Below the pieces are notes generated by a model. The model was not told the origin of the DNA. It did not search any database and worked only from the letters and a program-made list of their open reading frames with translations. Of a DNA stretch of 47,830 bases, positions 29,703 through 44,287 are shown one piece after another (within the stretch, counting starts at the first letter, position 1; the number at the start of each line of letters is the position of its first letter). A program made the translations under genes and the position numbers. The stretch is from NCBI GenBank assembly GCA_028712375.1, contig JAQTQG010000009.1, positions 1-47,830 of the forward strand. Reading direction: 5' to 3'. The stretch comes from Candidatus Omnitrophota bacterium (GTDB lineage Bacteria; Omnitrophota; Gorgyraeia; Gygaellales; Profunditerraquicolaceae).

Positions 29703-30051
29703 GCGCAGGATTAAGCCCAGATGGCAGATTAATCAAGGTGCGCAGTTAGCTTTTGAGAATGGGGTGCGTGCTATTCCTTGTGTTGTAGAGGATATCAGCC
29801 ATGGAGGCATGCGGATCTCTTTAAAAAGAAATTTATTTGATGATGTTTTTTCTAATTTTAAATTAACCCTTGCGGAAGATTTTCAGTTAAACCTTGGAGC
29901 GCAGGTAGTTTGGCGCCAGGAAGTATTTGAAAGAAATGTTTACGGCCTTTCATTTAGCCAAATCGATGAATCGGCCAAAAACGAATTAGATCAGTATATA
30001 AATAATAATTTTCACGGTTTGGTAGTTAAACATTGGTGGGAAGGGTCTTAA
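29695..30051 (+). CDS. PilZ-domain protein
   Basis: The protein has about 118 residues and is essentially one PilZ domain. PilZ domains bind cyclic-di-GMP through RxxxR and [DN]xSxxG motifs. Both are present here as RIKPR near the N-terminus and DISHGGM about 30 residues later, so binding is plausible. The start is ATG 29695 (6 nt after AGGAAGG); ATG 29692 is also possible but too close to the ribosome-binding site. The gene is immediately followed by another PilZ reading frame, so they form an operon. With no other domain, the protein probably acts as a small adaptor relaying c-di-GMP levels to a partner. Confidence 0.85.
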   Translation: MDERRIKPRWQINQGAQLAFENGVRAIPCVVEDISHGGMRISLKRNLFDDVFSNFKLTLAEDFQLNLGAQVVWRQEVFERNVYGLSFSQIDESAKNELDQYINNNFHGLVVKHWWEGS

Positions 30052-30056
30052 GAAAG

Positions 30057-30794
30057 ATGCGTGAACGCAGAAAATTGACGAGATGGCAAATAAGTAAGCG
30101 CGTTCCCATTAAATTGGAACAGGCAAACCCGCAGGGGGTTATTCGCTCGCTGCTTACTAAAACTACGAAAGAATTATTCTGCCAGATTAAAGATATTAAT
30201 TGTACCGGGGCACAGATTACTTTAAATACAAAATTACCCCAGGATGTTACTTTCAGGGTTAGTTTGAAGCTTGCTGAAGATTGCACTGTTATGGCGAATG
30301 TTTGGATTGCCTGGCATAAAAAGATTGACGGCAGTAATCATTATGGTTTTTATTTCAGCCAGATATCGGACGCAGACAGGGATAAGATTAATAAATTCAT
30401 TAACAATTTCTATCCTAATGATGATCCAAGAGATATACTTCGGCTGGGGATAGTTGATGCTGAAGGAGGCAGAGGAGGTGAAGAGATGAATGATCACCGG
30501 ATATTCGAAAGATTTAAGAAAGAGTTTTCTGCCCGCTTTATCGGTTTAGACGGAAAAGAAGTGGTGGCGCAGACTTTTGACGTGAGCGCCAAAGGTTTAG
30601 GATTAACCACCGATCAGGAGTTGGAATCGCAGGCTAATTTGGAAATTTGGCTGGATGTTCCCAATAGTACTGACCCGCTGTATACCCGAGGGCAGGTTGT
30701 TTGGAGCAGGTTAGCAGGTAAGGGTAATTTCCACTCAGGTATTGAATTGGAGAGGGCAGACCTGATGGGTATTTCCAGGCTGCTGCGTGCCTGA
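30057..30794 (+). CDS. Tandem PilZ-domain protein, possibly two fused genes
   Basis: The protein has about 245 residues and two PilZ domains. The first has RKLTR but DINCTGA in place of DxSxxG (Ser to Asn), so c-di-GMP binding is doubtful. The second has RIFER and DVSAKGL, both intact. I chose ATG 30057, just before the RxxxR motif, over TTG 30033, which overlaps the preceding gene. Between the domains the frame runs through a strong Shine-Dalgarno sequence (AGGAGGTG, 30473-30480) and an ATG at 30486, so the second domain probably can be made alone. The linker has a coding style suggesting former intergenic DNA. Deleting one G from the GGGG at 30446-30449 would create a TAG at once, which is compatible with two original genes or an indel error. 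Confidence 0.8.
   Translation: MRERRKLTRWQISKRVPIKLEQANPQGVIRSLLTKTTKELFCQIKDINCTGAQITLNTKLPQDVTFRVSLKLAEDCTVMANVWIAWHKKIDGSNHYGFYFSQISDADRDKINKFINNFYPNDDPRDILRLGIVDAEGGRGGEEMNDHRIFERFKKEFSARFIGLDGKEVVAQTFDVSAKGLGLTTDQELESQANLEIWLDVPNSTDPLYTRGQVVWSRLAGKGNFHSGIELERADLMGISRLLRA
30473..30488 (+). promoter_or_regulatory. Internal Shine-Dalgarno and ATG for the second PilZ domain
   Basis: AGGAGGTG (30473-30480) is a near-perfect complement of the 16S rRNA tail. It is spaced 5 nt from ATG 30486, which begins MNDHRIFERF just before the RxxxR motif. An independent 102-residue PilZ product (30486-30794) is likely. Confidence 0.7.
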
Positions 30795-30866: not shown

Positions 30867-30883
30867 ATGTTAAGTTTTAACAT
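30867..30883. promoter_or_regulatory. 17-bp perfect palindrome, candidate operator
   Basis: ATGTTAA-GTT-TTAACAT is an exact 7-bp inverted repeat with a 3-nt centre, 65 nt upstream of the solute-binding-protein start. It lies just after TTGACC (30848) and an inverted GGCAGG/CCTGCC pair (about 30,834-30,857). The 9-mer TGTTAAGTT recurs just upstream of the LacI-family gene (about 43,254). This suits a sugar-responsive repressor site. Which regulator binds it is inference. Confidence 0.5.
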
Positions 30884-30947
30884 TACGTCTTTTTATAGTC
30901 TATTCCCTGTGGATAATATCCCCCACGACAAACGGAAGGAGTATAGG

Positions 30948-32246
30948 ATGTGGTTTAAGAACGTGCTCGTAGGAGTTTTTGTATTATTTTCGGCTTTAGG
31001 TTGTTCCGAAACAAAAGTAGATTCAAAGCCCACCATTAGTATCTGGCATTGGATGACCGACCGCGATCCAGCTTTTCAGGAATTAGCAAAAAAATATGAA
31101 ACTTTGACCGGAGTAAAAATAAATTTTGAACTTTATGCTCCTTCGGATGCCTATTCGCAGAAGATTCGTGCGGCAGCGCAGGGAACAAATCTTCCGGATG
31201 TTTTCGGTATCCTGGGTGAGAAAAGAGACTTTGCTTCTTTTATCCGTGCCGGGCATATTCTGGACCTTACCTCTTATATGGAGGCCAATAACAATAGTTG
31301 GAAAAGCAGCTTCTTTCCTAAAGCGCTGGCCGTAAATGAATTTGCTCCCAAAAATAGCTACGGAATAAATCCCGGTATTTTCGGCGTGCCCATTGATATT
31401 ATGACCATTCAAATGGTTTATAATAAGAAACTTTTTACACAGTTAGGGTTAAATCCTAATCGGCCTCCTAAGACCCTTCAGGAATTTTTAGATATAGGCG
31501 CTAAAATTCAGGCTGCCGGGATGCAGGGGCTGGTTTCCGGATGGGGCGAGGTTTGGATGATTGATTGTATGGCGAATAATTATGCTTTTAACCTGATGGG
31601 TAAAGATAAGGTTCTGGCCACGATTAAAGGCGAAGTGCCTTACACTGATCCGGATTGGATTAAAGTGTTTACGATTTTCAAACAGATGAAAGATTCCGGC
31701 GTGCTGGCGCAAGGCCTGGTGACCATGATTAATAAATCTGCCGAACAGCTTTTTGCTAATGAGAAAGCAGTATTCGCTTTTAATGGTTCATGGTGTGTAA
31801 ATGTATATAAAGGAATGAATCCCGGTTTAGAATACGCGGCAATGCTTCCCCCGGAAGCATCAGATAAATACCCGATGGCGATCTGGGGAGGGGCAGGGTC
31901 TTCTTTTATGGTGAACGCCCGCTCTAAAAATAAAGAAGAAGCAGTGAAATTTTTAACTTGGCTGACTGATCAGGATCAACAGGTATATTTGGCCGCGGCA
32001 ACCAATAATCTGCCGGCCAATAAAAACAGTTTATCGAAGATCCCGGAAATACTTGCCCAGTTTGCCCGCGGCATGGATTATGCTACGCATCCGAATGTCT
32101 GGGGTGTTTCGGAGTTCTCTTTGGTCATTGAAGCTTTTGACCGGGGGATCCAGTCAATTATTATCGGAGAAAAAACTCCCGAGCAGGTAGCTGATGAGGT
32201 GCAAAAGATTAAGGAACGCGAATTAGCTAAGAAAAGAGCACAATGA
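30948..32246 (+). CDS. Sugar ABC transporter substrate-binding lipoprotein (CUT1 family)
   Basis: The protein has about 432 residues. ATG 30948 follows GGAAGGAG at good spacing; the in-frame extension to 30867 has no such site. An N-terminal signal ends in FSALGCSE, a slightly atypical lipobox with Ala-Leu-Gly before Cys. The mature part is a family 1 extracellular solute-binding protein, with TISIWHWMTDRDPAFQELAK, GTNLPDVFG and GIFGVPIDIMTIQMVYNKKLF as characteristic stretches. It would capture a sugar or oligosaccharide outside the membrane and deliver it to the two permeases encoded directly downstream. The stop overlaps the next start by 4 nt (ATGA), showing translational coupling. The substrate is unknown, though the glycosidase genes nearby suggest an oligosaccharide. 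Confidence 0.92.
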   Translation: MWFKNVLVGVFVLFSALGCSETKVDSKPTISIWHWMTDRDPAFQELAKKYETLTGVKINFELYAPSDAYSQKIRAAAQGTNLPDVFGILGEKRDFASFIRAGHILDLTSYMEANNNSWKSSFFPKALAVNEFAPKNSYGINPGIFGVPIDIMTIQMVYNKKLFTQLGLNPNRPPKTLQEFLDIGAKIQAAGMQGLVSGWGEVWMIDCMANNYAFNLMGKDKVLATIKGEVPYTDPDWIKVFTIFKQMKDSGVLAQGLVTMINKSAEQLFANEKAVFAFNGSWCVNVYKGMNPGLEYAAMLPPEASDKYPMAIWGGAGSSFMVNARSKNKEEAVKFLTWLTDQDQQVYLAAATNNLPANKNSLSKIPEILAQFARGMDYATHPNVWGVSEFSLVIEAFDRGIQSIIIGEKTPEQVADEVQKIKERELAKKRAQ

Positions 32247-33121
32247 AATTAAGGAATTCATTAGAAAACTACGTTTTTGTCCTCCCGGCAGTAACCATCT
32301 TTGCTATATTTTATGTCATTCCTTTTATTTGGGTTTTTCAGTTGGGGCTTTTTGAATGGGATGGCATTTCTTTTACCAAAATATTTGTAGGATTAGGTAA
32401 TTTTAAAGAAATATTTTTTCAGGATGTTAACTGGTGGCATGCGATGTGGAATGCCGGTTATATTACCTTGATCGCGCTTACTTTTCAGAACATCTTGGCT
32501 TTTATGCTGGCCTGGGCATGCGACCGTGAAATAAGGATGAAGAATTTTTACCGGGTAATCTTTTTTATCCCTCCGGTTTTGTCGGAAGTCGTCGTAGGGA
32601 TGGCCTGGCGTTTTATTATTAATGATATTGATGGAGCAAATATTATTAACCGTATGTTAATCGGGATGGGGCTGCCGCAATTGGCGCATAATTGGCTGTC
32701 GGATCCGAACACTGCTTTGACTACTGTAGCGATTGTGCACTGTTGGAAAGGGTTCGGCTGGGGGTTTTTGATTTTTCTGGCAGGCTTGCAGACTATCCCG
32801 CGTGAACTTTACGAAGCGGCGCGCGTTGACGGGGCCAGCGCCTGGCAGTCGTTTAAAAAAATAACCCTGCCTTTAATGGTCCCGGTGATGGTTTTAGTGG
32901 CTATTCTTACCGTGTTGGGCACCATGCAGGTATTTGTATTGATTGTCAGTTTGGTGGGCGGAGAATTTGCCGGGCATACGTCGGTGCCGGTTTTAAGAAT
33001 TTTAGCTTCCATGCGCGGTTCGTCGCGTTTTGGTTATGCTTGCGCGCAGGGGATTACCTTTGGGATGGTGCTGATTATTATATCTTTTATCCAGTATCGT
33101 TTTTCCAAGAAAGGCCAGTAA
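32243..33121 (+). CDS. Sugar ABC transporter permease, MalF type
   Basis: The protein has 292 residues with six hydrophobic helices, starting with VFVLPAVTIFAIFYVIPFIWVF. The cytoplasmic EAA loop reads ELYEAARVDGASAWQSFKKI and matches the EAAxxDGA consensus through which such permeases contact the ATPase. It is the first of the two membrane subunits of a CUT1 importer. Its start overlaps the stop of the solute-binding-protein gene. Confidence 0.93.
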   Translation: MKLRNSLENYVFVLPAVTIFAIFYVIPFIWVFQLGLFEWDGISFTKIFVGLGNFKEIFFQDVNWWHAMWNAGYITLIALTFQNILAFMLAWACDREIRMKNFYRVIFFIPPVLSEVVVGMAWRFIINDIDGANIINRMLIGMGLPQLAHNWLSDPNTALTTVAIVHCWKGFGWGFLIFLAGLQTIPRELYEAARVDGASAWQSFKKITLPLMVPVMVLVAILTVLGTMQVFVLIVSLVGGEFAGHTSVPVLRILASMRGSSRFGYACAQGITFGMVLIIISFIQYRFSKKGQ

Positions 33122-33125
33122 TTTT

Positions 33126-33974
33126 ATGAAACATGCTATTTATTATAAGAGTAAAGAAGTTGTTGCGAATACACTGATCCATATTTTCCTGATTAGCGTG
33201 GCAATTACCTGTTTGTATCCGCTGCTTTGGATGATCTCTTCCAGTTTAAAAACCCAGGAGATGATCTTTAAAGATATTTCTTTAATTCCGCATCAGTTCC
33301 GCCTGGAGAATTATGTTTTAGCCTGGAGAGAGGGAGGGTTTGGCCGTAACTTTTTTAACAGCATTATTTATACTGTCTCGGTAGTTTTCGGTATCGTGAT
33401 TATTTCTTCGATGGCTGCGTATGCTTTCAGCCGCCTGCGTTTTGCAGGAAGCAAATTTTTATTTATTATATTTATGGCGGCGATGATGATTCCTATCCCG
33501 GGAAGTTTTGTCGCTCTCTATGTTCTATTGAATAAACTGCATTTAAGGAATACGCCTATTGGCTATATCCTGTGTATGATTAATGTCGGGTTATCTACCA
33601 GTATATTTCTGCTGAAGACATTTTTTGATAAGATGCCCAAAGAATTGGAGGATGCTGCGCGCATTGACGGTTGTTCCAAGATTGGTATTTGGTGGCATGT
33701 TGCTTTGCCCCTGGCTAAGCCGGTATTGGCAGTGGTAATTGTTTTTAATGCCTTGGCGGTGTGGAATGAATATATCCTGGCCTTGATTATTTTTGATAAC
33801 CGTTCGTATATGCCGCTGCAGGTGGCTTTGCAGTCTTTTCAGGGCGAGTTTGTTACCAATTATCCGTTGTTAATGGCCGGTTTGACGATTACGGCTTTAC
33901 CGATTATTTTAGTGTATTTACTGATGCAGAAATATATTATTAAGGGTGTTACGCAGGGAGCGGTAGTAGGTTAA
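33126..33974 (+). CDS. Sugar ABC transporter permease, MalG type
   Basis: The protein has 282 residues with about six membrane helices and the EAA loop ELEDAARIDGCSKIGIWWHV. The typical MalG opening is present (LYPLLWMISSSLKTQEMIF), as is a closing QKYIIKGVTQGAV. It partners the MalF-type permease 4 nt upstream. No ATPase gene follows; CUT1 systems often share one MsmX/UgpC-type ATPase encoded elsewhere, which I infer here. Confidence 0.93.
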   Translation: MKHAIYYKSKEVVANTLIHIFLISVAITCLYPLLWMISSSLKTQEMIFKDISLIPHQFRLENYVLAWREGGFGRNFFNSIIYTVSVVFGIVIISSMAAYAFSRLRFAGSKFLFIIFMAAMMIPIPGSFVALYVLLNKLHLRNTPIGYILCMINVGLSTSIFLLKTFFDKMPKELEDAARIDGCSKIGIWWHVALPLAKPVLAVVIVFNALAVWNEYILALIIFDNRSYMPLQVALQSFQGEFVTNYPLLMAGLTITALPIILVYLLMQKYIIKGVTQGAVVG

Positions 33975-33975
33975 G

Positions 33976-36276
33976 ATGAAACTTAAATTTGTAAAATTAT
34001 TTTTTATGTTGGCAGTGATTTTCCAGTGCAGCAGCCTTCCGGCTGAGGAGCCGGCCGCGGTTGCCGTCAAGCCTTCTAGCGGTGACCTGACGACCAAATC
34101 CTGGATTGCCCACGGGAAGAAAGATATCGAAGCAACCAATAAATATACCCAGGAATGCATTGATCTATATAAGGAACAGGCAGCAAAGGAGCAGGCCAGC
34201 CTGGCCGCTTTACCTAAAAACAGAAAAGAAATTGAAGCCGTGCAGGCTTTAAATGATGTGGCAACCTGTTATTTTATTCAGGCGGAAAGCTTGATGCGCC
34301 AGCAGAAAAATGATGAGGCTAAAAAGGTTTTTAAAGTAATCATCGATAAATATTCTTTCGGCCAGGCCTGGGATCCGCGCGGGTGGTTCTGGTCGTTAAA
34401 GCTGGCTGCCGAACAAAGCATTAAAAAGATTGAAACCGGTTCCATTGAAGTTGAAACTAAGAAGAAAGTCAGCCAGTTGCCGACCAAGCTGGTTTTGTTT
34501 GACCCGGGCAAAGAAGAATTTGTGGATTATGGAAAATACGGCAAATTTGAAAATATCGGAACCAAAGATTATAAATATGTGATTACTGACCAGGAAGGCC
34601 TGATGGCGGCGGTCGGAGAAGGGGTTTATCCTAATAACGGCTCTGTCCGCAAAGACCCGATTTTTAAACAGGTGATTAAAGACAAGCGCCTGGAAGGTGA
34701 TGCCTGGGATTTTCTTTATTCTCCGGATCTGGAGGCAGCGTTTGTGAAATGGACAACTTCTAGTGAACCGCAAGGGGTAAAATTATTCTGCACCGGTTTG
34801 ATTCTGGAGAGAGCCGGTTTAATTCCCCAGGCGATTAAATGTTATTATTCTATCCTAGTGCATTTCCCGGGCAGCTACGGCTGGACTTATTGGCATACGC
34901 CCTGGTATGTCGGGCAGGCTGCGATCGCTAAAATAAATTTTCTGCTTCGGCGCAATCCACAGTTAGGTTATAAACTTGAGGGGGCGAAAGTAGATATTAT
35001 TAATGGTTTTGATAATGAGATTGTTAATGATACCGCGGTGGTTAATCCCGGTAAATTTGTAAAAGTTGACCTTAATCAGGAAGCAGCTAAAATTAAACCT
35101 TCCGCTGAATCTTTGGGCGTTAAAAAAGAAGTCGGCCGGGGCAAGGTGCGTTTAGTGCAGTATGCAAACGATGATTGGCAGATGCTGGTCGATGGTAATC
35201 CGTATATTATTAAAGGAATAACTTATGCTCCGACTAAAATCGGCCAATCGCCGGATGACGGAACCCAGGGCAATTGGATGGAAGAAGATTTCAATAAAAA
35301 CGGTAAAATTGACGGCCCGTATGATGCTTTTGTAGATAAGAATAAAAATAATCTTCAGGATGCGGATGAGCTGGCTATCGGTGATTTTAAATTGCTGCAG
35401 GATATGGGGGTCAATACCATCCGCCTGTATCACCATCCTTTAAAGGTAAACAAAGAATTAATGCGCGATATGTATAATACTTATGGCATACGCGTAATTA
35501 TGGGTGATTTTTTGGGTAAATATGCGATTGGTTCGGGGGCTGCCTGGAATCCCGGCACGGATTATAATAATGAGGAACATAAAAAGAACATGATTGCTTC
35601 GGTGACCAAAATGGTCAATGAGTTTAAGGATGAGCCGTATATTTTATTCTGGCTTTTGGGCAATGAAAATGTTTACGGATATGCCTGTAATGCTAATGAA
35701 CAGCCGGAAGCTTATTTTAAATTTGCCAATGAAGTAGCTAAGATTATCAAATCTATCGATCCGCAGCATCCGGTAGCGATTTGCAGCGGAGATATTTTGT
35801 TCCTAGATAAGTTCGGCAAAAATGCCCCGGATATTGATATCTTCGGCACGAATGCTTATCGCGGCGACTATGGGTTTGGCGCTTTCTGGAGGCAGGTTAA
35901 AGATCAATCAGGCAAGCCGGCTTTTATTACTGAATTTGGCTGCCCCTCTTATGCCGAAGGCAAAAGCGCTGATGAATCTGAAGAGTTGCAGGCGCAATAT
36001 CATTTAGGTTCTTGGGAGGATATGGAGAATAATATGGCTTTTAACGGTGCCGCCGGTAATTGCTTGGGGGGAGTGGTTTTTGAATGGCTTGATGAATGGT
36101 GGAAGGCTTATGAGCCGGCAATCCATGATACTAAAGGATTATGGAGCGGGCCGTTCCCTGATGGATATATGCATGAAGAATGGCTGGGGGTTGCCGGCCA
36201 AGGGGATGGCAAAGAAAGCCCGTTCCTGCGTCAGCTACGTAAAGCTTATTATATGTATCAAAAAAAGTGGCAATGA
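33976..36276 (+). CDS. Secreted TPR + glycoside hydrolase (clan A-like TIM barrel)
   Basis: The protein has 766 residues. An N-terminal hydrophobic signal (about 1-23) is followed by an alpha-helical TPR-like part (about 60-340). From about residue 390 a catalytic barrel resembles the C-terminal domain of family 2 and related clan A hydrolases, with YIIKGITYAP, DMGVNTIRLYHHP, FWLLGNEN (candidate acid/base Glu 564) and FITEFGCPSY (candidate nucleophile Glu 653). A closing GGVVFEWLDEWWK is also typical. Between the first two barrel strands lie two EF-hand-like loops, DFNKNGKIDG and DKNKNNLQDADE, that are missing from the paralogue at 37,490. The gene starts 1 nt after the permease stop. It probably trims an extracellular or periplasmic glycan for the importer; the linkage is unknown. 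Confidence 0.82.
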   Translation: MKLKFVKLFFMLAVIFQCSSLPAEEPAAVAVKPSSGDLTTKSWIAHGKKDIEATNKYTQECIDLYKEQAAKEQASLAALPKNRKEIEAVQALNDVATCYFIQAESLMRQQKNDEAKKVFKVIIDKYSFGQAWDPRGWFWSLKLAAEQSIKKIETGSIEVETKKKVSQLPTKLVLFDPGKEEFVDYGKYGKFENIGTKDYKYVITDQEGLMAAVGEGVYPNNGSVRKDPIFKQVIKDKRLEGDAWDFLYSPDLEAAFVKWTTSSEPQGVKLFCTGLILERAGLIPQAIKCYYSILVHFPGSYGWTYWHTPWYVGQAAIAKINFLLRRNPQLGYKLEGAKVDIINGFDNEIVNDTAVVNPGKFVKVDLNQEAAKIKPSAESLGVKKEVGRGKVRLVQYANDDWQMLVDGNPYIIKGITYAPTKIGQSPDDGTQGNWMEEDFNKNGKIDGPYDAFVDKNKNNLQDADELAIGDFKLLQDMGVNTIRLYHHPLKVNKELMRDMYNTYGIRVIMGDFLGKYAIGSGAAWNPGTDYNNEEHKKNMIASVTKMVNEFKDEPYILFWLLGNENVYGYACNANEQPEAYFKFANEVAKIIKSIDPQHPVAICSGDILFLDKFGKNAPDIDIFGTNAYRGDYGFGAFWRQVKDQSGKPAFITEFGCPSYAEGKSADESEELQAQYHLGSWEDMENNMAFNGAAGNCLGGVVFEWLDEWWKAYEPAIHDTKGLWSGPFPDGYMHEEWLGVAGQGDGKESPFLRQLRKAYYMYQKKWQ

Positions 36277-36278
36277 AA

Positions 36279-36295
36279 TTAAGCTTATCGCTTAA
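36279..36295. other. Small intercistronic hairpin
   Basis: TTAAGC-TTATC-GCTTAA lies 3 nt after the hydrolase stop. The 6-bp stem has no T-run, so it may mark an RNA-processing or stabilising site ahead of the next gene rather than a terminator. Confidence 0.35.
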
Positions 36296-36348
36296 ATTCG
36301 TTCAGGGTTTAATCTAGTAAGCAACAGAAATAAAAAGGGGAGGTGGGT

Positions 36349-37497
36349 ATGAAAAAGTTATTAGTGGTGTTGTTGGCCTTAACTCTTATGGCTCCGGTTG
36401 TGGCCGTGGCTGAAGATAAGGCTGCGGGCCCTAAGGAATTTGTGGTTTACTTGGATAAAAATGCCAAAGATAATCATTACATTCCTTCCGGCTGGATGGG
36501 TGATTATGGTGATATTAAAATGAACGATCAATCTGCGGACAGCCCGCATACTGGCACAACCAGTATTCAGTTCATTTACAGCGGCAAGCAATCACAAACT
36601 CAAGGTTGGGCAGGTGTTTACTGGCAGAATCCGGCAAACAACTGGGGAAATAAAAAGGGCGGGTTTGATTTAACAGGGATGACCAAACTTACCTTTTGGG
36701 CACGTGGTGCTAAAGGTGGAGAGGTGATTCAAAAAGTCATGGTTGGCGGTATCAAAGGTACTTATCCCGATTCCTTGATGGTTGAGATGGGGCCGATTGA
36801 GTTAACCGATACCTGGAAGCAGTATACAGTTAATTTAGTGGGCAAGGATCTAACTTATGTAAATGGTGCATTTGGCTGGACGGCAACCGCGGACCTGAAT
36901 CCTAATGGCGCGACATTTTATATTGATGATATCAAGTTTGAATCTGATGCATCATTAAAACCGGAAGGTAAAAAACAACAGGCGATGCCGTTTTATATTT
37001 ATGCGGATCGTTCTTCCGTAGTCAACCACTTCATTCCTTCCGGATGGATGGGTGATTATGGCGACATCAAGTTTGATGGATCTTCCAAGGAAGACGCGTA
37101 TTTAGGGGATACCTGCGTTAAGGTAGTATACAGCGGAAAAGCCACGCAAGGCGCCCGCTGGGCAGGAATCTTTTGGCAGAATCCGGCGAATAACTGGGGC
37201 AGCGTAGATTCCGGATTTGATCTTTCTTTAGCTTCTAAGCTTACTTTTTGGGCGCGCGGCGCAGTAGGCGGTGAGCGCATCGAAGAGTTTAAAGTAGGCG
37301 GCATTATGGGAGAGTTCTCGGATTCAGATAGCGCAACTATCGGCCCTGTGCTCTTGACTAAAGAGTGGACTCAGTATACTATTGATTTAAAAGGCAAAGA
37401 TATGTCATATATTATCGGTGGTTTTGCCTGGAGCGCGAATGTGGATAATAACCCGGAAGGCGCAACATTCTATCTGGATGAGATTAAGTTTGAGTGA
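36349..37497 (+). CDS. Secreted protein with two copies of a putative carbohydrate-binding domain
   Basis: The protein has about 382 residues. ATG 36349 follows a strong AAGGGGAGG. The signal peptide MKKLLVVLLALTLMAPVVAVA ends before EDKAAG. The rest is two similar beta-rich domains of about 184 residues. Each contains IPSGWMGDYGDIK, a WAG(V/I)(Y/F)WQNPANNWG stretch, LTFWARGA and an ending GATFY(I/L)D(E/D)IKFE. Conserved Trp and Tyr residues and a galactose-binding-like beta-sandwich pattern point to glycan binding. I do not recognise a named CBM family. It lies between two glycoside hydrolase genes, which supports a role in holding the same polysaccharide. No catalytic motif is visible. Confidence 0.75.
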   Translation: MKKLLVVLLALTLMAPVVAVAEDKAAGPKEFVVYLDKNAKDNHYIPSGWMGDYGDIKMNDQSADSPHTGTTSIQFIYSGKQSQTQGWAGVYWQNPANNWGNKKGGFDLTGMTKLTFWARGAKGGEVIQKVMVGGIKGTYPDSLMVEMGPIELTDTWKQYTVNLVGKDLTYVNGAFGWTATADLNPNGATFYIDDIKFESDASLKPEGKKQQAMPFYIYADRSSVVNHFIPSGWMGDYGDIKFDGSSKEDAYLGDTCVKVVYSGKATQGARWAGIFWQNPANNWGSVDSGFDLSLASKLTFWARGAVGGERIEEFKVGGIMGEFSDSDSATIGPVLLTKEWTQYTIDLKGKDMSYIIGGFAWSANVDNNPEGATFYLDEIKFE

Positions 37498-38764
37498 TTC
37501 AAAAAAGACGGTGATTAATATTGCAGGCTACAGGCGTTTTTTGCTTGTAGCCTGCAGTGTTTTGTTGGTATTTATTTTGTCCGCCTGCCAGAATTCTCGC
37601 GGCGTTTATATTCAAAAGTTAAAGAATCAGCATTACCGCCTGATGGTGGGCGGCCGGCCTTATATTGTAAAAGGTGTTTGTTACAATCCTATCCCGATAG
37701 GTTCAAATCACGAATACGACTGGTGGAGTGATCCCCATAAGCCCTGGATTGCAGATGGTAAGTTGATGAAAGAAATGGGGGTTAATACTATTCGTCTTTA
37801 CCAGGCGCATGAGAATTCCAAAGAAGTAAAACAGGTAATCAATGATCTATATAAATTATACGGAATCCGCACGCTTTTAGGTGATTGGCTGGGATTCTGG
37901 GAATATCCCTGTCCTTTTTATGGCGATAAAAAGTTTCAGGAAAAAGTTATGCAGCAGGTAACCGAGATGGTCAGTCTTTATAAAGATGAGCCCGGGGTTT
38001 TGGGTTGGATTCTGGGCAATGAAAATAATTATTCCTGCCTGGGGCATGTTAACCCCTGGAGCAGCCCGGAGGTAGATAGCGAGCCGGATCCGCAGAAACA
38101 GAAATTGATGCGGGCAAAGATTTACTATTCTTTTGTAAATGAAATTTCCAAACAAGTCCATAAAATAGACCCGCATCACCCGGTAGGCTTAGGCAACGGG
38201 GAGTTGGTCGGGTTGGATTCCGCGAATAAATTTTGCCAGGATGTTGATTTTGTCGCCTGCATTATTTATCGCGGAAAAACTTTTGGTAATCTTTTTAAGT
38301 CTTTAAGAATGACTTTTGATAAACCGCTATTGATGGCGGAGTTTGGCGCGGACTGTTATGATGCTTATTTAAAAAAGGAAGACCAGAATATACAGGCTTT
38401 CTTTTTGCAGTCGCAGTGGGCGCAGATTTATGAAAATTTGGCCAATAATAAATCCGGCGCGGGAAATTGTATCGGCGGAACGGTTTTTGAGTGGACCGAT
38501 GAATGGTGGAAGCATAATTCTGATGATCCGCAAGGCTGGAAGATCCAGGATACTGAAAGCAGCTGGTCTAACGGCAGTTATTATTCCGATATTCGGGCTG
38601 AAGGCAATAAAAATATGAATGAAGAATGGTTCGGTATTATTGCTTTAGGCGCGGAGTTAGAAAATGGTATTAATAAACGAATACCGCGTAAAGCTTATTA
38701 TGTGATTAGGGAATTTTGGAAGAATCCGGTAATTAAAAAAACGCCAGTTAAAAAACCACGCTAG
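37490..38764 (+). CDS. Lipoprotein glycoside hydrolase (clan A-like TIM barrel)
   Basis: The protein has about 424 residues if it starts at TTG 37490, overlapping the previous stop; GTG 37511 is an alternative, and neither has a clear ribosome-binding site. A hydrophobic segment ends in the good lipobox FILSACQ, so the enzyme is likely membrane-anchored outside the cytoplasm. The barrel parallels the catalytic half of the 33,976 gene, with YIVKGVCYNP, EMGVNTIRLYQAHE, WILGNENNY (candidate acid/base Glu 178), LMAEFGADCY (candidate nucleophile Glu 284) and GGTVFEWTDEWWK. It lacks the TPR half and the calcium-type loops of that paralogue. It probably acts on the same or a related glycan. Confidence 0.82.
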   Translation: MSDSKKTVINIAGYRRFLLVACSVLLVFILSACQNSRGVYIQKLKNQHYRLMVGGRPYIVKGVCYNPIPIGSNHEYDWWSDPHKPWIADGKLMKEMGVNTIRLYQAHENSKEVKQVINDLYKLYGIRTLLGDWLGFWEYPCPFYGDKKFQEKVMQQVTEMVSLYKDEPGVLGWILGNENNYSCLGHVNPWSSPEVDSEPDPQKQKLMRAKIYYSFVNEISKQVHKIDPHHPVGLGNGELVGLDSANKFCQDVDFVACIIYRGKTFGNLFKSLRMTFDKPLLMAEFGADCYDAYLKKEDQNIQAFFLQSQWAQIYENLANNKSGAGNCIGGTVFEWTDEWWKHNSDDPQGWKIQDTESSWSNGSYYSDIRAEGNKNMNEEWFGIIALGAELENGINKRIPRKAYYVIREFWKNPVIKKTPVKKPR

Positions 38765-38795
38765 CCGGTTGATAGATATTTTTATAGGAGGGAGT

Positions 38796-40406
38796 ATGGC
38801 ACCTTTATTAAGACACGCAGCAGTATTCTTAGGAATAGTTTTAGCGGTACCTGTAATTCTTTTTGCCCAGCCTCTGGAGCAGAAAGCGGGTTCCTGTTGT
38901 CCTAATATTGAAGAGGCCAAAATAAAGTATCTGGCGGATAACCAGTATAATGAATTTATTGATTTTCTGAACAATTTTAAAGATAAGGATAAGGCTGCCC
39001 AGCTTTGCCTGGATTATTATAAAGCCGACACGCGTTATGCGCAGCTTAAATACCTGGAGGACAAACAGTCTTGGGATGATTATTTTGCTAATGGCAATAC
39101 TTATCGCGATCAGTTGTTAGAAAACGCTCAGAAGGTTATCAGCCAGGCGGATAGCGCTAATTGCCTGAAGGTTAAAAGCAGGCTTTTGGTTTGGCAATTT
39201 CATCATGGCCAGCAGGATGCTTTTACCCAGCAGGCCCTGGATGACCTGGTGGCGGATGTGCAGGTTTATGCAAAAGGAGCTGCCCAGTTAGATTTAATCA
39301 AGGAAGTGGCGGATAATCTTTTAGCTTATGAAGAAAAATCCAAAGCCCGTGAAGTTTATAAGCTTTATGTTAACGGATTGGTTACCAAAAATATGGCCCC
39401 GGAGCAATTGAAAAATGCCGCCGCCGGATTTTATAAACAAGGCAATGTAGAATTGGCGCAGAGTGTTTATGATATTTATATTGAGGAGATTTCTAAAGTA
39501 TTTGCTGCTGATAAATTGACCGGGGAGCTGTTTGAAATCGCCAGCCTTTTTGTGTATAAGCCGCAAGGCGATGGTTTGGCTTCCGATAGCCAAAGCCATA
39601 AGCCTGTGGGTTTATATGATATGGCTTATGCGGAAAAAATTTATGCCAGGATAGAGTCGTTAGGGCAGCAGGATGCATTTAATCAGGATACAATCTATCT
39701 GCGCGCCTTGAATTTAGAAAAAAATAAAGATTATAAAGATGCGCAGAAATTCTATATTCAGCTAACCCAGGCTTATCCGGACACTAAGTATTTTGACGAA
39801 GCTACTTATAAAATAGCGATGATTAACGCTTATGCTTTAGCGGATATAACTGAAGCCAGAAAATATTTTGAGTTGCTCAGCGCTAAAACTGTATTAAGCC
39901 CGCAGGTAATTTCCAGCTTTTATCAGCTGGGCCTTTTAGCGCAGTGGCAGGGGGATTTAGTGAAAGCCAGCGGCTACTATGATTTATTGTTAAAGAATGC
40001 CCAGGATAAGTATGTTTTGACTGTAGCGGCGGCCCGGGAAAGGATGAAGGAGATTCAGGAAAATAAGCCGCTTAGTTATAATTTAAAAACCTTTCTCGAT
40101 TTGTCTTTAAATAAAGATTCCGCATTAGCAGAAATGAATAAGGCGGAGTTAAGGGCTTCCAGTTATATATTGGCAAAGAACCAAAGCAATACAGTTTCTT
40201 CCGTTGTAAATATGCCGCAGAGCGGATGTAATCAGGTTGAGTTGCAGTACCTCTGGAGCGGTGATTTAGGAGGTGTTATTCCCGGGGTGACAGAAGGCAG
40301 TTTCCAGGGCGCTTATTCTGATAGCGGGACTAAAGAAATAAATATCGTTATAATTTCACCCGCAGGCACTGTAGACCGCTCATTTGCCATGGTGGATGTC
40401 TATTAG
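38796..40406 (+). CDS. Secreted TPR-repeat protein
   Basis: The protein has about 536 residues. ATG 38796 follows AGGAGGG; the in-frame extension to 38769 lacks such a site. A signal peptide ends in VILFAQP. The bulk is alpha-helical with TPR-like units, clearest in the second half (KDYKDAQKFYIQLTQAYPDT, ADITEARKYFELL, GDLVKASGYYDLLLKN). A short beta-rich C-terminal piece ends with ISPAGTVDRSFAMVDVY. Such proteins act as scaffolds for assemblies outside the cytoplasm. Its place as last gene of the sugar cluster suggests it organises the glycan-processing proteins. I do not recognise a specific family. Confidence 0.7.
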   Translation: MAPLLRHAAVFLGIVLAVPVILFAQPLEQKAGSCCPNIEEAKIKYLADNQYNEFIDFLNNFKDKDKAAQLCLDYYKADTRYAQLKYLEDKQSWDDYFANGNTYRDQLLENAQKVISQADSANCLKVKSRLLVWQFHHGQQDAFTQQALDDLVADVQVYAKGAAQLDLIKEVADNLLAYEEKSKAREVYKLYVNGLVTKNMAPEQLKNAAAGFYKQGNVELAQSVYDIYIEEISKVFAADKLTGELFEIASLFVYKPQGDGLASDSQSHKPVGLYDMAYAEKIYARIESLGQQDAFNQDTIYLRALNLEKNKDYKDAQKFYIQLTQAYPDTKYFDEATYKIAMINAYALADITEARKYFELLSAKTVLSPQVISSFYQLGLLAQWQGDLVKASGYYDLLLKNAQDKYVLTVAAARERMKEIQENKPLSYNLKTFLDLSLNKDSALAEMNKAELRASSYILAKNQSNTVSSVVNMPQSGCNQVELQYLWSGDLGGVIPGVTEGSFQGAYSDSGTKEINIVIISPAGTVDRSFAMVDVY

Positions 40407-40630: not shown

Positions 40631-41863
40631 ATGCGTGTCTTGGATTTACAAAAAGAAGAATTTACGGAAAAAGAAAAACGTAATATCGAGATATTGAGCA
40701 TATTAAGAAGGCAGGGCCCGATTAGCCGTTCTGATATTTCGCAGGAGATGGGGATTAATGTAGTGAGTATCTCCAACTATATCGACGATTTTATTAAATA
40801 TAACCTGGTTTATGAGAAAGAGCTGGATGTTTCTGAAGGCGGCCGCCGGCCGGTATTATTAGATTTAAATCCGCGCGCCGGGTATGCCATCGGCGTAGGG
40901 TTAAACCTGATGAATATGGTCGGGTTACTGATAGATTTAAAAGGCAATATTATTACCAAGACGCAAATTGTCCGCCCCCAGGCATCGGTTAAAGAAGTTT
41001 CCGAATGCCTCTTGGAAATCGTCCGTGAAATATTAAGGCGCTCCAAGGGGTATGTAGAAAACATTAAGGGTATCGGCGTGGGTATTGCCGGGTTGATCAA
41101 TAAAAAAGACGGCTCAATTCATTGGCCTCAGAAAATGGATCATTATTATACTTATGCTTCAGTAGACCTTCCCCTGAGGGGGTTAATGGAAAGAGAATTT
41201 AATCTGCCTACGCTTATTGAAAATGATTCTACCAGTGCTTGCTTTGGGGAACATTGGTTTGACCTAAAAGAAAATTATAAGAATGTTCTGTATATGTTTT
41301 CCGGGTCCGGTTGCGGTATGATTATTAATGGAGAACTTTACCGCGGCGCGCAAGGTTATGCCGGTGAAACTTCCGTGTATAATTATAAAGAGCAGGATCT
41401 TTTTAATTGCGAAAGCGGAAAACCCTGTTTTGTTAAACGTTGGGACCTGGATTTGGGAATTGTTCAGGATGTAAAAGAAGTATTGTTAAAAGAAAAACAA
41501 AAAGCAGAAGAGTTTTTTCGTATTAGTTCAAGCAATATCGAAAGCTTGGGCTTAAAAGATATTTTTCACGCCGCGCGTTTAAAAAATCCGCTGGCTTTGG
41601 AAGTTTTGGAAAAAGCGGCTAAAAGACTAGGGATTAAAATTGCTTATTTAGTTAATCTGCTTAATCCGCAGGTAGTGGTGATCGGCGGAGGGTTTGAAGA
41701 TGCCGGAGAAGAATTCTTAAACACGGTTAAGTCTACAATTGTTGATTGGGCTTTTCGTGAATCGACCGGGAATCTAAAAATAGTTTATTCGCAATTAAGA
41801 GAAAATGCCGTAGCCATGGGCGCGGCCAGCTTAGTCCTAGAGAAAGTGTTCGCCCAATTATAA
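40631..41863 (+). CDS. ROK-family transcriptional regulator (NagC/XylR-like)
   Basis: The protein has 410 residues. The N-terminal winged helix (about 18-65; ILSILRRQGPISRSDISQEM, SNYIDDFIKYNLV) is followed by the GGRRP linker typical of NagC/XylR/Mlc repressors and a ROK sugar-kinase-like domain. ENDSTSACFGEHWF keeps the Asp that is catalytic in ROK kinases. The sugar-contacting AGExGH motif reads AGETSVY, so Gly and His are lost. The zinc motif CxCGxxGCxE is reduced to NCESGKPC. This points to a repressor with an altered effector rather than a kinase. It lies just downstream of the sugar cluster and probably controls it, answering to a sugar or sugar phosphate. Confidence 0.88.
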   Translation: MRVLDLQKEEFTEKEKRNIEILSILRRQGPISRSDISQEMGINVVSISNYIDDFIKYNLVYEKELDVSEGGRRPVLLDLNPRAGYAIGVGLNLMNMVGLLIDLKGNIITKTQIVRPQASVKEVSECLLEIVREILRRSKGYVENIKGIGVGIAGLINKKDGSIHWPQKMDHYYTYASVDLPLRGLMEREFNLPTLIENDSTSACFGEHWFDLKENYKNVLYMFSGSGCGMIINGELYRGAQGYAGETSVYNYKEQDLFNCESGKPCFVKRWDLDLGIVQDVKEVLLKEKQKAEEFFRISSSNIESLGLKDIFHAARLKNPLALEVLEKAAKRLGIKIAYLVNLLNPQVVVIGGGFEDAGEEFLNTVKSTIVDWAFRESTGNLKIVYSQLRENAVAMGAASLVLEKVFAQL

Positions 41864-41874
41864 GCCGTAAGGCA

Positions 41875-41899
41875 ATGGTTTTTTGTTAATTAAAACCAT
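41875..41899. other. Hairpin upstream of the coiled-coil gene
   Basis: ATGGTTTT and AAAACCAT pair over 8 bp with a 9-nt loop, directly before the ribosome-binding site of the next gene. It could modulate translation or be a weak terminator after the ROK gene. Its left arm belongs to a TAAGGCAATGGTTT sequence that recurs near 44,356. Confidence 0.4.
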
Positions 41900-41912
41900 A
41901 ACAGGGGGGATT

Positions 41913-43082
41913 ATGGAACAGAAAATTAAATTTATTATTATCGGCTTGGCGGGTTTTTGTTTGCTGTTTGTTTTTCTTTTTATACAGGCATCCAGCCAGC
42001 AGCAAAAGCTGCTTAGAGAAAGCAACGATTTAAAAACTGAAAATACTGCTTTGATGGGCAAAGCCAGCAAACTGGAGAATGATTTAAAAGAAACTCAAAG
42101 CAGAATAAACTCTCTGAAAGCCGAGAAAGATAGAGGGGTGGAAGAGCTTAATGATCTGCAGAAAAGATTTGAGTCAGTAAGCCGGACCAGGGATGAGTTG
42201 ATTGAGAAGTTGAAGCAGCAGAGTCAGGCTCAGGCCTCTGCCCCTGCCCCTGCGCCGGTACAGCAGGAGGTATCTGTCCCGCAGAATACCGATGCTTATT
42301 GGGGGACAGTGCTTAAGTCTAAAGCGGATTTAGAAATACAATTATCCAGTATCCGGACAGAGCTAAAGAATTTACAAATCAGTAATGAGTCCTTGCAAAG
42401 AGAAAAAAATGTCCTGGCAATTGATATCAACAGTTTGCGTAATGAGAGAAAAGATCTGCTCAGGCAGCTTGATTATAATCAGAAACTTCTGGATAGTATG
42501 TCCCAGGAGGTTGTGCGGGAAAGAAATGATAAGGTGGCAATTCAGGACAACCTTAAAGATATCCGTGTTGAGAACGGTATGCTTAGCCGGCAGCTAAAAA
42601 GTTTAGTCAGCCGCAAGGAATCTTTGGATAAAAAAGTCCAGAGCCTTCAGGAAGATAAGTCGACGATAGAAAAACGGCTCAACGAGATGGAGGCAATGCT
42701 TACTGATAAAATTACTAAGATTGATGCGCTTAAAAATGAGCTGGAGGCAGTAAAAAACAGTAAAGCCTCAGATGCGGGTAAAGAGTCTAAGGGGTCTGTG
42801 GAATTACCGGCAATTGTGGTGCGTTCAGCTTCCTCTTCGGATAAGGGGTCAGTGCAAATACAGGAATATCCGGGCAAGATTCTGGCTGTAAATTTAGATA
42901 GTAACTTTGTAGTCATAGATTTAGGTTCTACTTCCGGGGTGAAAGTGGGCAATACTTTTAATGTTTACCGTGATGCTAAGTCCATCGGTACGATCGCCGT
43001 AATTCAAACCAGGGCCGGTATTTCTGCTTGCGATATAAAGAGGATGAATACTCCGTTAAAAATCGGAGATGGCGTTAAGTGA
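41913..43082 (+). CDS. Membrane-anchored coiled-coil protein
   Basis: The protein has about 389 residues. ATG 41913 follows AGGGGGGA. One N-terminal membrane helix (FIIIGLAGFCLLFVFLFIQA) is followed by long coiled coil rich in Lys, Glu, Leu and Gln (about residues 30-280), broken by a short Ala/Pro spacer (APAPAPVQQ). The C-terminal part (about 315-389) is a compact beta domain with ILAVNLDSNFVVIDLGSTSG, VKVGNTFNVYRDAKSIGTI and a closing IGDGVK. Similar 'NxxxVxIDxGxxxGVxxGxxFxVYR' domains occur at the C-termini of cell-envelope proteins. It may be a scaffold reaching across the periplasm. The specific role is unknown. Confidence 0.75.
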   Translation: MEQKIKFIIIGLAGFCLLFVFLFIQASSQQQKLLRESNDLKTENTALMGKASKLENDLKETQSRINSLKAEKDRGVEELNDLQKRFESVSRTRDELIEKLKQQSQAQASAPAPAPVQQEVSVPQNTDAYWGTVLKSKADLEIQLSSIRTELKNLQISNESLQREKNVLAIDINSLRNERKDLLRQLDYNQKLLDSMSQEVVRERNDKVAIQDNLKDIRVENGMLSRQLKSLVSRKESLDKKVQSLQEDKSTIEKRLNEMEAMLTDKITKIDALKNELEAVKNSKASDAGKESKGSVELPAIVVRSASSSDKGSVQIQEYPGKILAVNLDSNFVVIDLGSTSGVKVGNTFNVYRDAKSIGTIAVIQTRAGISACDIKRMNTPLKIGDGVK

Positions 43083-43270: not shown

Positions 43271-44287
43271 ATGACTCGTTCGAAAAAGACTCCTTCCAAG
43301 AATATCTCCATAGTTGATGTTGCCAAAGTCAGCGGCGTATCTATTACTACAGTTTCCCGGGTAATTAATAAAATTGGCACAGTCAAGGAATCTAACCGGG
43401 CCAAAGTAGCCAAGGCGGTTAAAGATTTGAAGTTCCAGCCGTCTATCTTTGCCCAGCGCCTGGCTACCGGCAGAAGCAATGTTGTGGCTTTGGTTATCCC
43501 GCGCTATGAAGGCGTATTTTATTCATTCTATGCTTTGGAACTTATCCGCGGCGTAGGCACTATGTGCGAGGTTCTAAAACTAGATTTGCTTTTACATCTT
43601 ACCGATGCGCGTACTCCATTGTCTTTACGCGGAGTAGGGGGAGTGATATTCTCGGATATTATCGGTAATCGCGCGCAACTAGAGGATGCTTTAGCTAAAG
43701 GCATACCCAGCGTGGTAATTAATTATTATGTGGAAGACCTGGATGTTTCTTGCATCGCCGTGGATAATGCCGGCGGGGCGGAGAATGCCGTTAATTACCT
43801 GATTGAATTAGGGCATAAAAAGATTGCGCATATCACCGGTGATATAAAAACTCAGTCGGCGGCCAAGCGCCTGGAGGGTTATAAACGGGCATTGGAGAAA
43901 AACGGTATTGCGATTAGGCAGGATTACATTTTTGAAACGGATTATTCCCGGGGGGCAGCCAGAAGCGCGGCAGAAAAATTGATTAAAGCGGCTGATCCGG
44001 TTACTGCTGTTTTTGTGGCTTCTGATGCGATGGCTTTGGAGGTAATGGCGGTAGCCCGTGAACGGGGAAAGAATATCCCGGATGATTTATCAATTGTTGG
44101 TTTTGATGATAATCCTTCGGGGCTCTATGGCCCGGTAGGATTAACTACCGTGCGCCAGCCGTTAATCCGTATGGCCGAAGAAAGCGTTAAAGAATTAAAC
44201 CGTTTGATTGGATTAAACAAAAAATCGGTAAAAAAGATTCTGCTTCCTGCAGAATTAGTTATCCGGGAATCCTGCAAGCCCCGGTAG
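43271..44287 (+). CDS. LacI-family transcriptional regulator
   Basis: The protein has 338 residues. The N-terminal LacI helix-turn-helix is clear (SIVDVAKVSGVSITTVSRVI and NRAKVAKAVKDLKFQPS with the hinge ARRLA-like AQRLATGRS). A periplasmic-binding-like effector domain follows (VVALVIPRYEG, GHKKIAHITGD, AVFVASDAMALEVMA, LSIVGFDDNPSGLYGPVGLTTVRQP). Such proteins repress sugar genes and release DNA when a sugar binds. No good ribosome-binding site is visible at ATG 43271. The half-palindrome TGTTAAGTT just upstream matches half of the candidate operator before the sugar cluster, so self-control and control of that cluster are plausible. Confidence 0.9.
   Translation: MTRSKKTPSKNISIVDVAKVSGVSITTVSRVINKIGTVKESNRAKVAKAVKDLKFQPSIFAQRLATGRSNVVALVIPRYEGVFYSFYALELIRGVGTMCEVLKLDLLLHLTDARTPLSLRGVGGVIFSDIIGNRAQLEDALAKGIPSVVINYYVEDLDVSCIAVDNAGGAENAVNYLIELGHKKIAHITGDIKTQSAAKRLEGYKRALEKNGIAIRQDYIFETDYSRGAARSAAEKLIKAADPVTAVFVASDAMALEVMAVARERGKNIPDDLSIVGFDDNPSGLYGPVGLTTVRQPLIRMAEESVKELNRLIGLNKKSVKKILLPAELVIRESCKPR

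Follow-up and report, generated by a model that had tools for sequence, protein, structure and literature searches.

We identified a ten-gene locus in Candidatus Omnitrophota that we read, with a probability of about 0.7, as a β-1,3(-1,4)-glucan utilization operon. Its most likely substrate is β-1,3-glucan (laminarin-like, possibly mixed β-1,3/1,4), and it would use import by an ATP-binding cassette (ABC) transporter and phosphorolysis instead of a SusC/SusD pair. The locus lies in a 47,830-nucleotide stretch (hereafter the window; GenBank assembly GCA_028712375.1, contig JAQTQG010000009.1, forward strand) that comes from an Omnitrophota metagenome-assembled genome (MAG) of 1.65 Mb (contig C15 of genome G000 in our numbering); its nearest relatives are Candidatus Omnitrophota, with proteins up to 91% identical. 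We favour this reading because the nearest solved relatives of the two hydrolase barrels encoded here belong to GH158, because the accompanying binding protein has a fold like that of carbohydrate-binding modules (CBMs) of families 11, 22 and 30, and because phosphorylases are linked to, and co-occur with, the hydrolases in related genomes. Gene order, folds, catalytic residues, conservation, and phosphorylase co-occurrence and linkage were computed here; enzyme activity, substrate, localization, how the two hydrolases share the work, and regulation we infer.

Omnitrophota have not been cultured, and there is debate about what they feed on. Most have been proposed to be predators or parasites (PMC10066038), and polysaccharide-depolymerizing enzymes were reported to be absent from all Omnitrophota MAGs of one study (PMC8542988). 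The operon predicts a concrete, testable food, β-1,3-glucan; if the prediction is true, organisms proposed as predators would have a dedicated polysaccharide diet.

A predicted ten-gene operon

From position 30,867 to position 44,287, ten genes run in a single direction (+), in the order: CUT1 solute-binding protein, two MalF/MalG-type permeases, a hydrolase with a tetratricopeptide repeat (TPR)-like domain (GHtpr), a doubled β-sandwich protein, a second hydrolase (GHlip), a TPR protein, a ROK regulator, a coiled-coil protein and a LacI regulator. An initial annotation of the window had singled out positions 33,976 to 38,764, with paralogous glycosidases flanking a doubled binding protein. Open reading frames (ORFs) at 33,976–36,276 (766 amino acids), 36,343–37,497 (384 amino acids) and 37,418–38,764 are indeed present there, in line on the + strand. 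That scope was too narrow, however, since the unit spans the solute-binding protein gene (from 30,867) through the LacI gene (to 44,287). We consider it an operon because its genes are tightly packed and their order is conserved. The start of GHtpr is one base past the permease stop, and the ATG of GHlip lies within the 3′ end of the doubled-protein gene. Judged from sequence, GHlip most likely starts at ATG 37,481, since "MRLS/MRSS" starts recur in relatives and a start at 37,418 would create an 80-base overlap with the preceding gene. The genes that carry our argument are the following:

30,867–32,246, +: CUT1 sugar ABC solute-binding protein, lipoprotein with ALGC lipobox (Pfam SBP_bac_8, 1.1e-36)
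32,243–33,121, +: MalF/UgpA-like permease (Pfam BPD_transp_1, 1.4e-15; UgpA, 4.6e-28)
33,126–33,974, +: MalG/UgpE-like permease (Pfam BPD_transp_1, 1.2e-17; GlcU, 2.2e-35)
33,976–36,276, +: GHtpr; signal peptide, TPR-like helical domain (residues ~35–154), middle domain (~170–390), GH158-like clan GH-A barrel (~390–766)
35,665–35,667, +: GHtpr acid/base Glu564 (GNE); invariant in 34 sequences, aligns with the catalytic NE of BuGH158
35,932–35,934, +: GHtpr nucleophile Glu653 (TEFG/TEYG); invariant in 34 sequences, aligns with ITEWG of BuGH158
36,343–37,497, +: doubled β-sandwich protein; signal peptide, domain 1 (~31–206), domain 2 (~214–384) (AlphaFold and Foldseek)
37,481–38,764, +: GHlip; second GH158-like barrel, hydrophobic N-terminus (lipobox LSAC here), Lys-rich C-terminus
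38,021–38,023, +: GHlip acid/base Glu178 (GNEN; numbered from 37,490); invariant in 32 sequences
38,339–38,341, +: GHlip nucleophile Glu284 (EFG; numbered from 37,490); invariant in 32 sequences

Two hydrolases related to GH158

GHtpr and GHlip are paralogues, as first proposed, with 33% identity over 411 amino acids (BLASTP, 197 bits, E 5e-60). Pfam gave only weak matches to the barrels (GH2_C, 8.3e-11, and Glyco_hydro_72). The best PDB sequence matches of GHtpr are both solved GH158 proteins (phmmer; 9oro, 4.2e-12; 6pal, 2.2e-11), and the best match of GHlip was again a GH158 protein, 9oro, at 1.8e-06 as a single sequence and at 1.8e-09 as a profile (hmmsearch). Structure-based assignment gave the same nearest family: Foldseek with an AlphaFold model of GHtpr, built from 34 orthologs (predicted local distance difference test score, pLDDT, 81.4), placed GH158 at ranks 1–6 (9oro, 6.6e-12; 6pal, 2.7e-11), followed by GH2 and GH72. 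In the alignment, the Asn-Glu acid/base after β4 of BuGH158 (N136, E137) and its nucleophile after β7 (E220) are matched by N563, E564 and E653 in GHtpr and by N177, E178 and E284 in GHlip, and these catalytic residues are invariant in 34 GHtpr and 32 GHlip orthologs. Thus, no non-glycosidase family was assigned to the barrels and both catalytic glutamates are present, in agreement with the glycosidases of the initial annotation.

Over a 165-residue fragment, the two GH158 proteins are 39.5% identical to each other; GHtpr is 30–31% and GHlip 22–27% identical to GH158. Like the GH158 endo-β-1,3-glucanases (BuGH158, PDB 6PAL; GH158(Pro), PDB 9ORO), both barrels are of clan GH-A, with an NE acid/base and an E[FW]G nucleophile. 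Unlike GH158, GHtpr has additional N-terminal TPR-like and middle domains, and the family of the window's barrels shares a VFEW(L/T)DEWWK stretch that the GH158 fragments do not show. Conversely, the GPxGxWE...WK.PIE..S.EK stretch that follows the nucleophile in both solved GH158 proteins is absent from GHtpr and GHlip, and the C-terminal Ig-like domain of BuGH158, which touches the barrel there, is lacking from the GHtpr model and from GHlip, whose chain likewise stops right after the barrel. Since that stretch and that domain are missing, we call the barrels GH158-like rather than GH158: they are clan GH-A TIM barrels that stand beside GH158, not in it. We set GH2 behind GH158, as only the barrel model (GH2_C) matches; the N-terminal β-sandwich domains are absent, and the N-terminus of GHtpr is mainly helical.

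The fusion of GHtpr to TPRs described initially was borne out by the AlphaFold model, which is helical at residues 35–154; TPR_6 (98–126) falls narrowly under the Pfam cut-off (24.3 versus 26.3 bits). The description of GHlip as a lipoprotein holds for the window protein, with its LSAC lipobox, but not beyond close relatives: by eye, a Cys ends the hydrophobic segment in about 6 of 32 aligned orthologs, and only the hydrophobic N-terminus is conserved. We therefore rejected "lipoprotein" as the defining trait of GHlip.

Three further observations concern GHtpr. Early in its barrel (window positions 35,275–35,370) there is a "DFNKNGKIDGPYD...DKNKNNLQDADE" insertion with DxNxNGxxD-type repeats, which by its sequence looks like two EF-hand or dockerin-like calcium-binding loops; these repeats are partly deleted at five other loci (L087, L096, L106, L112 and L117). 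The TPR-like domain also occurs separately, as a two-copy protein of ~300 amino acids near GHtpr at loci where GHlip is missing (L173, L174, L175, L176, L177, L178, L184, L185 and L187). Finally, some larger Omnitrophota genomes (G188, G218, G196, G190 and G155) have many GHtpr-related matches (13 in G188, 12 in G218), including barrels without the TPR domain, possibly an expansion to other glucans.

A doubled protein with the fold of carbohydrate-binding modules

The protein between the hydrolases had been described as two similar putative glycan-binding domains. Its halves are 54.8% identical over 168 amino acids, scoring 213 bits as compared with at most 26.9 bits for 30 shuffles. We built a tree of 84 domains from the halves of 35 doubled proteins and single-domain homologs of other lineages. 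First halves formed one clade (support 1.0) and second halves another (0.99), which indicates that the doubling in the window's lineage is one old duplication; the single-domain homologs fall outside both half-clades. The protein has no Pfam match and no related PDB sequence, and its sole library match is NCBIfam choice_anch_J, a broad domain. Its AlphaFold model (pLDDT 85.8), however, places each half in a β-sandwich of CBM fold. Foldseek matches include tandem CBM22 (4xup, 2.0e-11), CBM11 (6r3m, template modelling (TM) score 0.61), CBM30, CBM29 and CBM8 (7t7y, TM 0.69, by target length), and the CBM11 was solved with a β-1,3-1,4 tetrasaccharide. Judged from the modelled fold, the doubled protein probably binds glycan. 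It shares its fold with CBM11, CBM22, CBM30, CBM29 and CBM8 modules but differs from known modules in being free-standing, without a catalytic domain, and in having no detectable sequence relation to them.

Phosphorylases linked to the operon and co-occurring with the hydrolases

The strongest clue to the substrate is the linkage of phosphorylases to the operon outside the window. Among 17 loci (L171–L187) that were retrieved for GHtpr from other families and were not selected for phosphorylases, 12 have a phosphorylase or GH116 in the operon or its flank. Across the loci, the operon or flank encodes a GH94 of laminaribiose phosphorylase type in L176, L177 and L187, GH161 in L104, L180, L183 and L208, a GH94 of cellobiose phosphorylase type in L171, L175, L178, L180, L185, L186 and L208, and GH116 in L131, L133, L136, L139, L172 and L182. 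Some other lineages have a GPH/MFS_2 sugar symporter within the operon.

Both β-1,3 phosphorylases also co-occur with the hydrolases. Among the 252 hydrolase-positive genomes, 181 encode laminaribiose phosphorylase, as compared with 11 of the 132 hydrolase-negative ones (110 of 173 and 6 of 124, respectively, outside the window's own order). For GH161 the numbers out of 252 and 132 are 205 and 11, and for either enzyme 223 and 14. The genome of the window has one GH94 gene, a full-length match to laminaribiose phosphorylase 6ggy (E 1.2e-266), which was the only match of the GH94 supersandwich model in that genome, and one gene for GH161, a β-1,3-glucan phosphorylase (E 8.7e-231). GH116, present in operons of some relatives, was sought in this genome and is absent. 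Hence, a CUT1 binding protein and permeases are found with GH94/GH161 in the same operon in other lineages and in the same genome here, which is the arrangement of an ABC-plus-phosphorylase locus. Laminaribiose phosphorylase and GH161 genes adjoin each other in L206 (G209:C23) and in G106:C51, as in other bacteria.

The closest solved relatives of the solute-binding protein bind chitin-, xylo- and other oligosaccharides. A UgpC/MsmX-type ATPase encoded elsewhere in the genome (489 bits; cut-off 432) could energize the CUT1 importer. The lack of a SusC/SusD pair, pointed out initially, agrees with our data: no such pair occurs among the operon ORFs and the TonB-plug matches of the genome are on other contigs, although no genome-wide search for SusD was made. 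A gene that encodes a TPR domain and, after it, a long region resembling an outer-membrane barrel lies in the operon of L125 (13040–16123), L127 and L171 (13717–16839) and has a homolog in the window's genome (G000:C37:21524–24355); its product is possibly a glycan entry or export channel.

Conservation across Omnitrophota

In 384 Omnitrophota genomes, we detected the hydrolase in 252, the binding domain in 233 and both in 227. Within the window's order, almost all long loci retain the gene order from the PilZ-type gene upstream of the operon through the LacI gene. Other lineages often have, in place of GHlip, a protein of ~300 amino acids that comprises the TPR-like domain of GHtpr twice and, in place of the doubled binding protein, single-domain proteins. 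Relatives were sought in one scan of genome contigs, and the 79 loci kept from it are almost all titled Omnitrophota. One, L101 (SBBM01000015.1), is titled Planctomycetales, and its gene order is that of Omnitrophota, with high identity (permease 82%, CBM 75%); it is probably a mislabelled MAG.

A model for glucan use, and its alternatives

We propose that the doubled CBM-like protein would capture a β-glucan chain, which the two GH158-like barrels would cut outside the cytoplasmic membrane, GHtpr being held via its TPR-like domain and GHlip by its N-terminal hydrophobic anchor. By eye, the signal peptides of GHtpr and of the doubled protein are of the ordinary kind, and the hydrolases and binding protein, likened initially to a surface assembly, may be secreted, outer-membrane or periplasmic. 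The solute-binding protein and the two permeases of MalF/MalG type, powered by a shared UgpC/MsmX-type ATPase, would import the oligosaccharides; cytoplasmic GH161 would trim them to the disaccharide and laminaribiose phosphorylase (GH94) would split that disaccharide, the products of phosphorolysis being glucose-1-phosphate and glucose. The ROK and LacI regulators may sense the sugar. BuGH158, to which the barrels are related, is a proven endo-β-1,3-glucanase (PMC7157763), and GH161 and GH94 genes elsewhere adjoin ABC importers, their enzymes having been proposed to act in sequence on β-1,3-oligosaccharides (PMC6484121).

Several points weigh against this model. The co-occurrence counts ignore the relatedness of genomes, and in the window's own genome GH94 and GH161 are on other contigs, unlinked to the operon. 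The single nearest solved relative of the solute-binding protein binds chitin oligosaccharides. The fold match of GHtpr to GH158 is limited to the barrel, with TM 0.49–0.55 by target length. The window encodes no exo-acting enzyme and no outer-membrane entry route. Finally, the cellobiose phosphorylase of several operons would also fit a β-1,4 or mixed-linkage glucan.

That last point bears on the alternative that the operon acts on mixed-linkage or β-1,4 glucan (lichenan, cellodextrins), β-1,3 bonds being secondary. A cellobiose phosphorylase-type GH94 lies in or beside the operon in nine retrieved loci, the fold matches of the doubled protein include CBM11, CBM30 and CBM29, and a comparable Firmicute locus with GH16, an ABC importer and GH94 serves mixed-linkage glucan (PMC10318527). 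We nevertheless consider this unlikely, as the barrels are nearest to GH158, a family whose assayed members show a strong preference for laminarin over mixed-linkage glucan (PMC7157763), and the phosphorylases of the window's own genome are of β-1,3 types.

It is rather improbable that the organism remodels or recycles a glucan of its own envelope, with the importer recovering the fragments. The gene order is unusually stable across a phylum whose genomes are small, and TPR proteins, together with a TPR/outer-membrane-barrel gene beside the operon in some species, recall exopolysaccharide export systems. However, regulators of the LacI and ROK types, an importer for oligosaccharides and phosphorylases inside the cell are typical of catabolism, we recognized no glucan synthase in the retrieved loci, and the GH94 of the window's genome is of laminaribiose phosphorylase type rather than a cyclic glucan synthase. 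An operon that serves predation, with a polysaccharide on the surface of prey or host cells as its substrate, would suit the lifestyle proposed for many Omnitrophota (PMC10066038), but we judge this very improbable: none of the operon's genes suggests an attack on cells, and an importer with phosphorylases suits any dissolved β-glucan. We give least credence to the barrels being GH72-like transglycosylases, which would agree with a Pfam Glyco_hydro_72 match to GHtpr just over the cut-off (28.4 bits) and with GH72 Gel4 and Gas2 among its fold matches, since GH158 is the better match by sequence and fold and the neighbouring genes are degradative.

Comparison with known systems

The proposed β-1,3-glucan system is conserved and well bounded, and its parts are individually of known kinds. 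The Bacteroides 1,3GUL (PMC7157763) resembles it in combining an endo-enzyme of GH158 type with a regulator and with separate proteins for glycan binding; here, however, the cluster has no SusC/SusD pair, GH3 or GH16: an ABC importer takes the place of SusC/SusD, and phosphorylases that of the β-glucosidase. The GH161/GH94 loci of Acholeplasma, Bacillus weihaiensis and Paenibacillus likewise combine an ABC importer with GH161, a laminaribiose phosphorylase of GH94 or both, and their tandem GH94–GH161 is matched by L206; their outer enzyme is GH16 or GH30, whereas here it is a GH158-like pair with a CBM-only partner, in another phylum (PMC6484121). The mixed-linkage glucan locus of Blautia producta (PMC10318527) is similar in its anchored endo-glucanase, ABC importer and GH94 phosphorylase but carries GH16 and CBM4 on one chain, whereas the binding domains here form a separate doubled protein.

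The open-licence literature that we found describes neither this combination of genes nor the TPR-fused enzyme, a doubled protein of CBM-like domains only, or conservation throughout the phylum, which is not proof of novelty. In the same literature, Omnitrophota and laminarin appeared together only in work on sulfate reduction in coastal sediment, and Omnitrophota and laminaribiose phosphorylase not at all. Our analysis brings to light two protein families, barrel and binding domain, without a name in the libraries searched here. We put at slightly under an even chance the broader claim that the barrels represent either a new family of clan GH-A or a deep subfamily of GH158, and the doubled β-sandwich a new CBM family, forming with the importer and GH161/GH94 an undescribed, SusC/SusD-free β-1,3-glucan system that is near-core to Omnitrophota and gives proposed predators a dedicated polysaccharide diet.

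Accompanying genes and giant ORFs

The remaining genes of the operon, and the gene upstream of it, are as follows:

30,033–30,794, +: PilZ-type domain protein, upstream of the operon; conserved position, with homologs at the same place in most long loci
38,769–40,406, +: TPR-repeat protein with C-terminal β domain; likely start ATG 38,796 (TIGR02795, 1.4e-06); conserved position
40,631–41,863, +: ROK-family (NagC/Mlc-like) regulator (Pfam ROK, 1e-41; NagC, 1.5e-41); conserved position
41,883–43,082, +: coiled-coil protein; conserved position
43,271–44,287, +: LacI-family regulator (Pfam LacI, 1.2e-13; Peripla_BP_3, 5.1e-34); conserved position

Further upstream, the window has an ORF of 1926 amino acids at 1–5,781 with HAD-hydrolase domains and one of 7327 amino acids at 5,929–27,912 with phosphoglycerate kinase, phosphoribosyltransferase and GNAT domains; giant ORFs have been reported in Omnitrophota (PMC10066038). 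Another giant ORF, in G104:C9 (L213–L216; the contig that also holds L096), runs on the − strand from 33540 and is open beyond 99998, with 35009 codons by search and 22152 within the 66 kb examined. It has a GH161 domain and, at its extreme C-terminus, a barrel resembling GHlip (61% identity) in which the catalytic motifs are intact. It also has sigma-70 regions 2–4 and HMGL/homocitrate-synthase-like domains. We rejected this ORF as a fusion argument linking the barrel to GH161, since the sigma-70 and homocitrate-synthase-like domains indicate that it collects unrelated genes. Its end lies immediately upstream of the PilZ and solute-binding protein genes of an ordinary operon.

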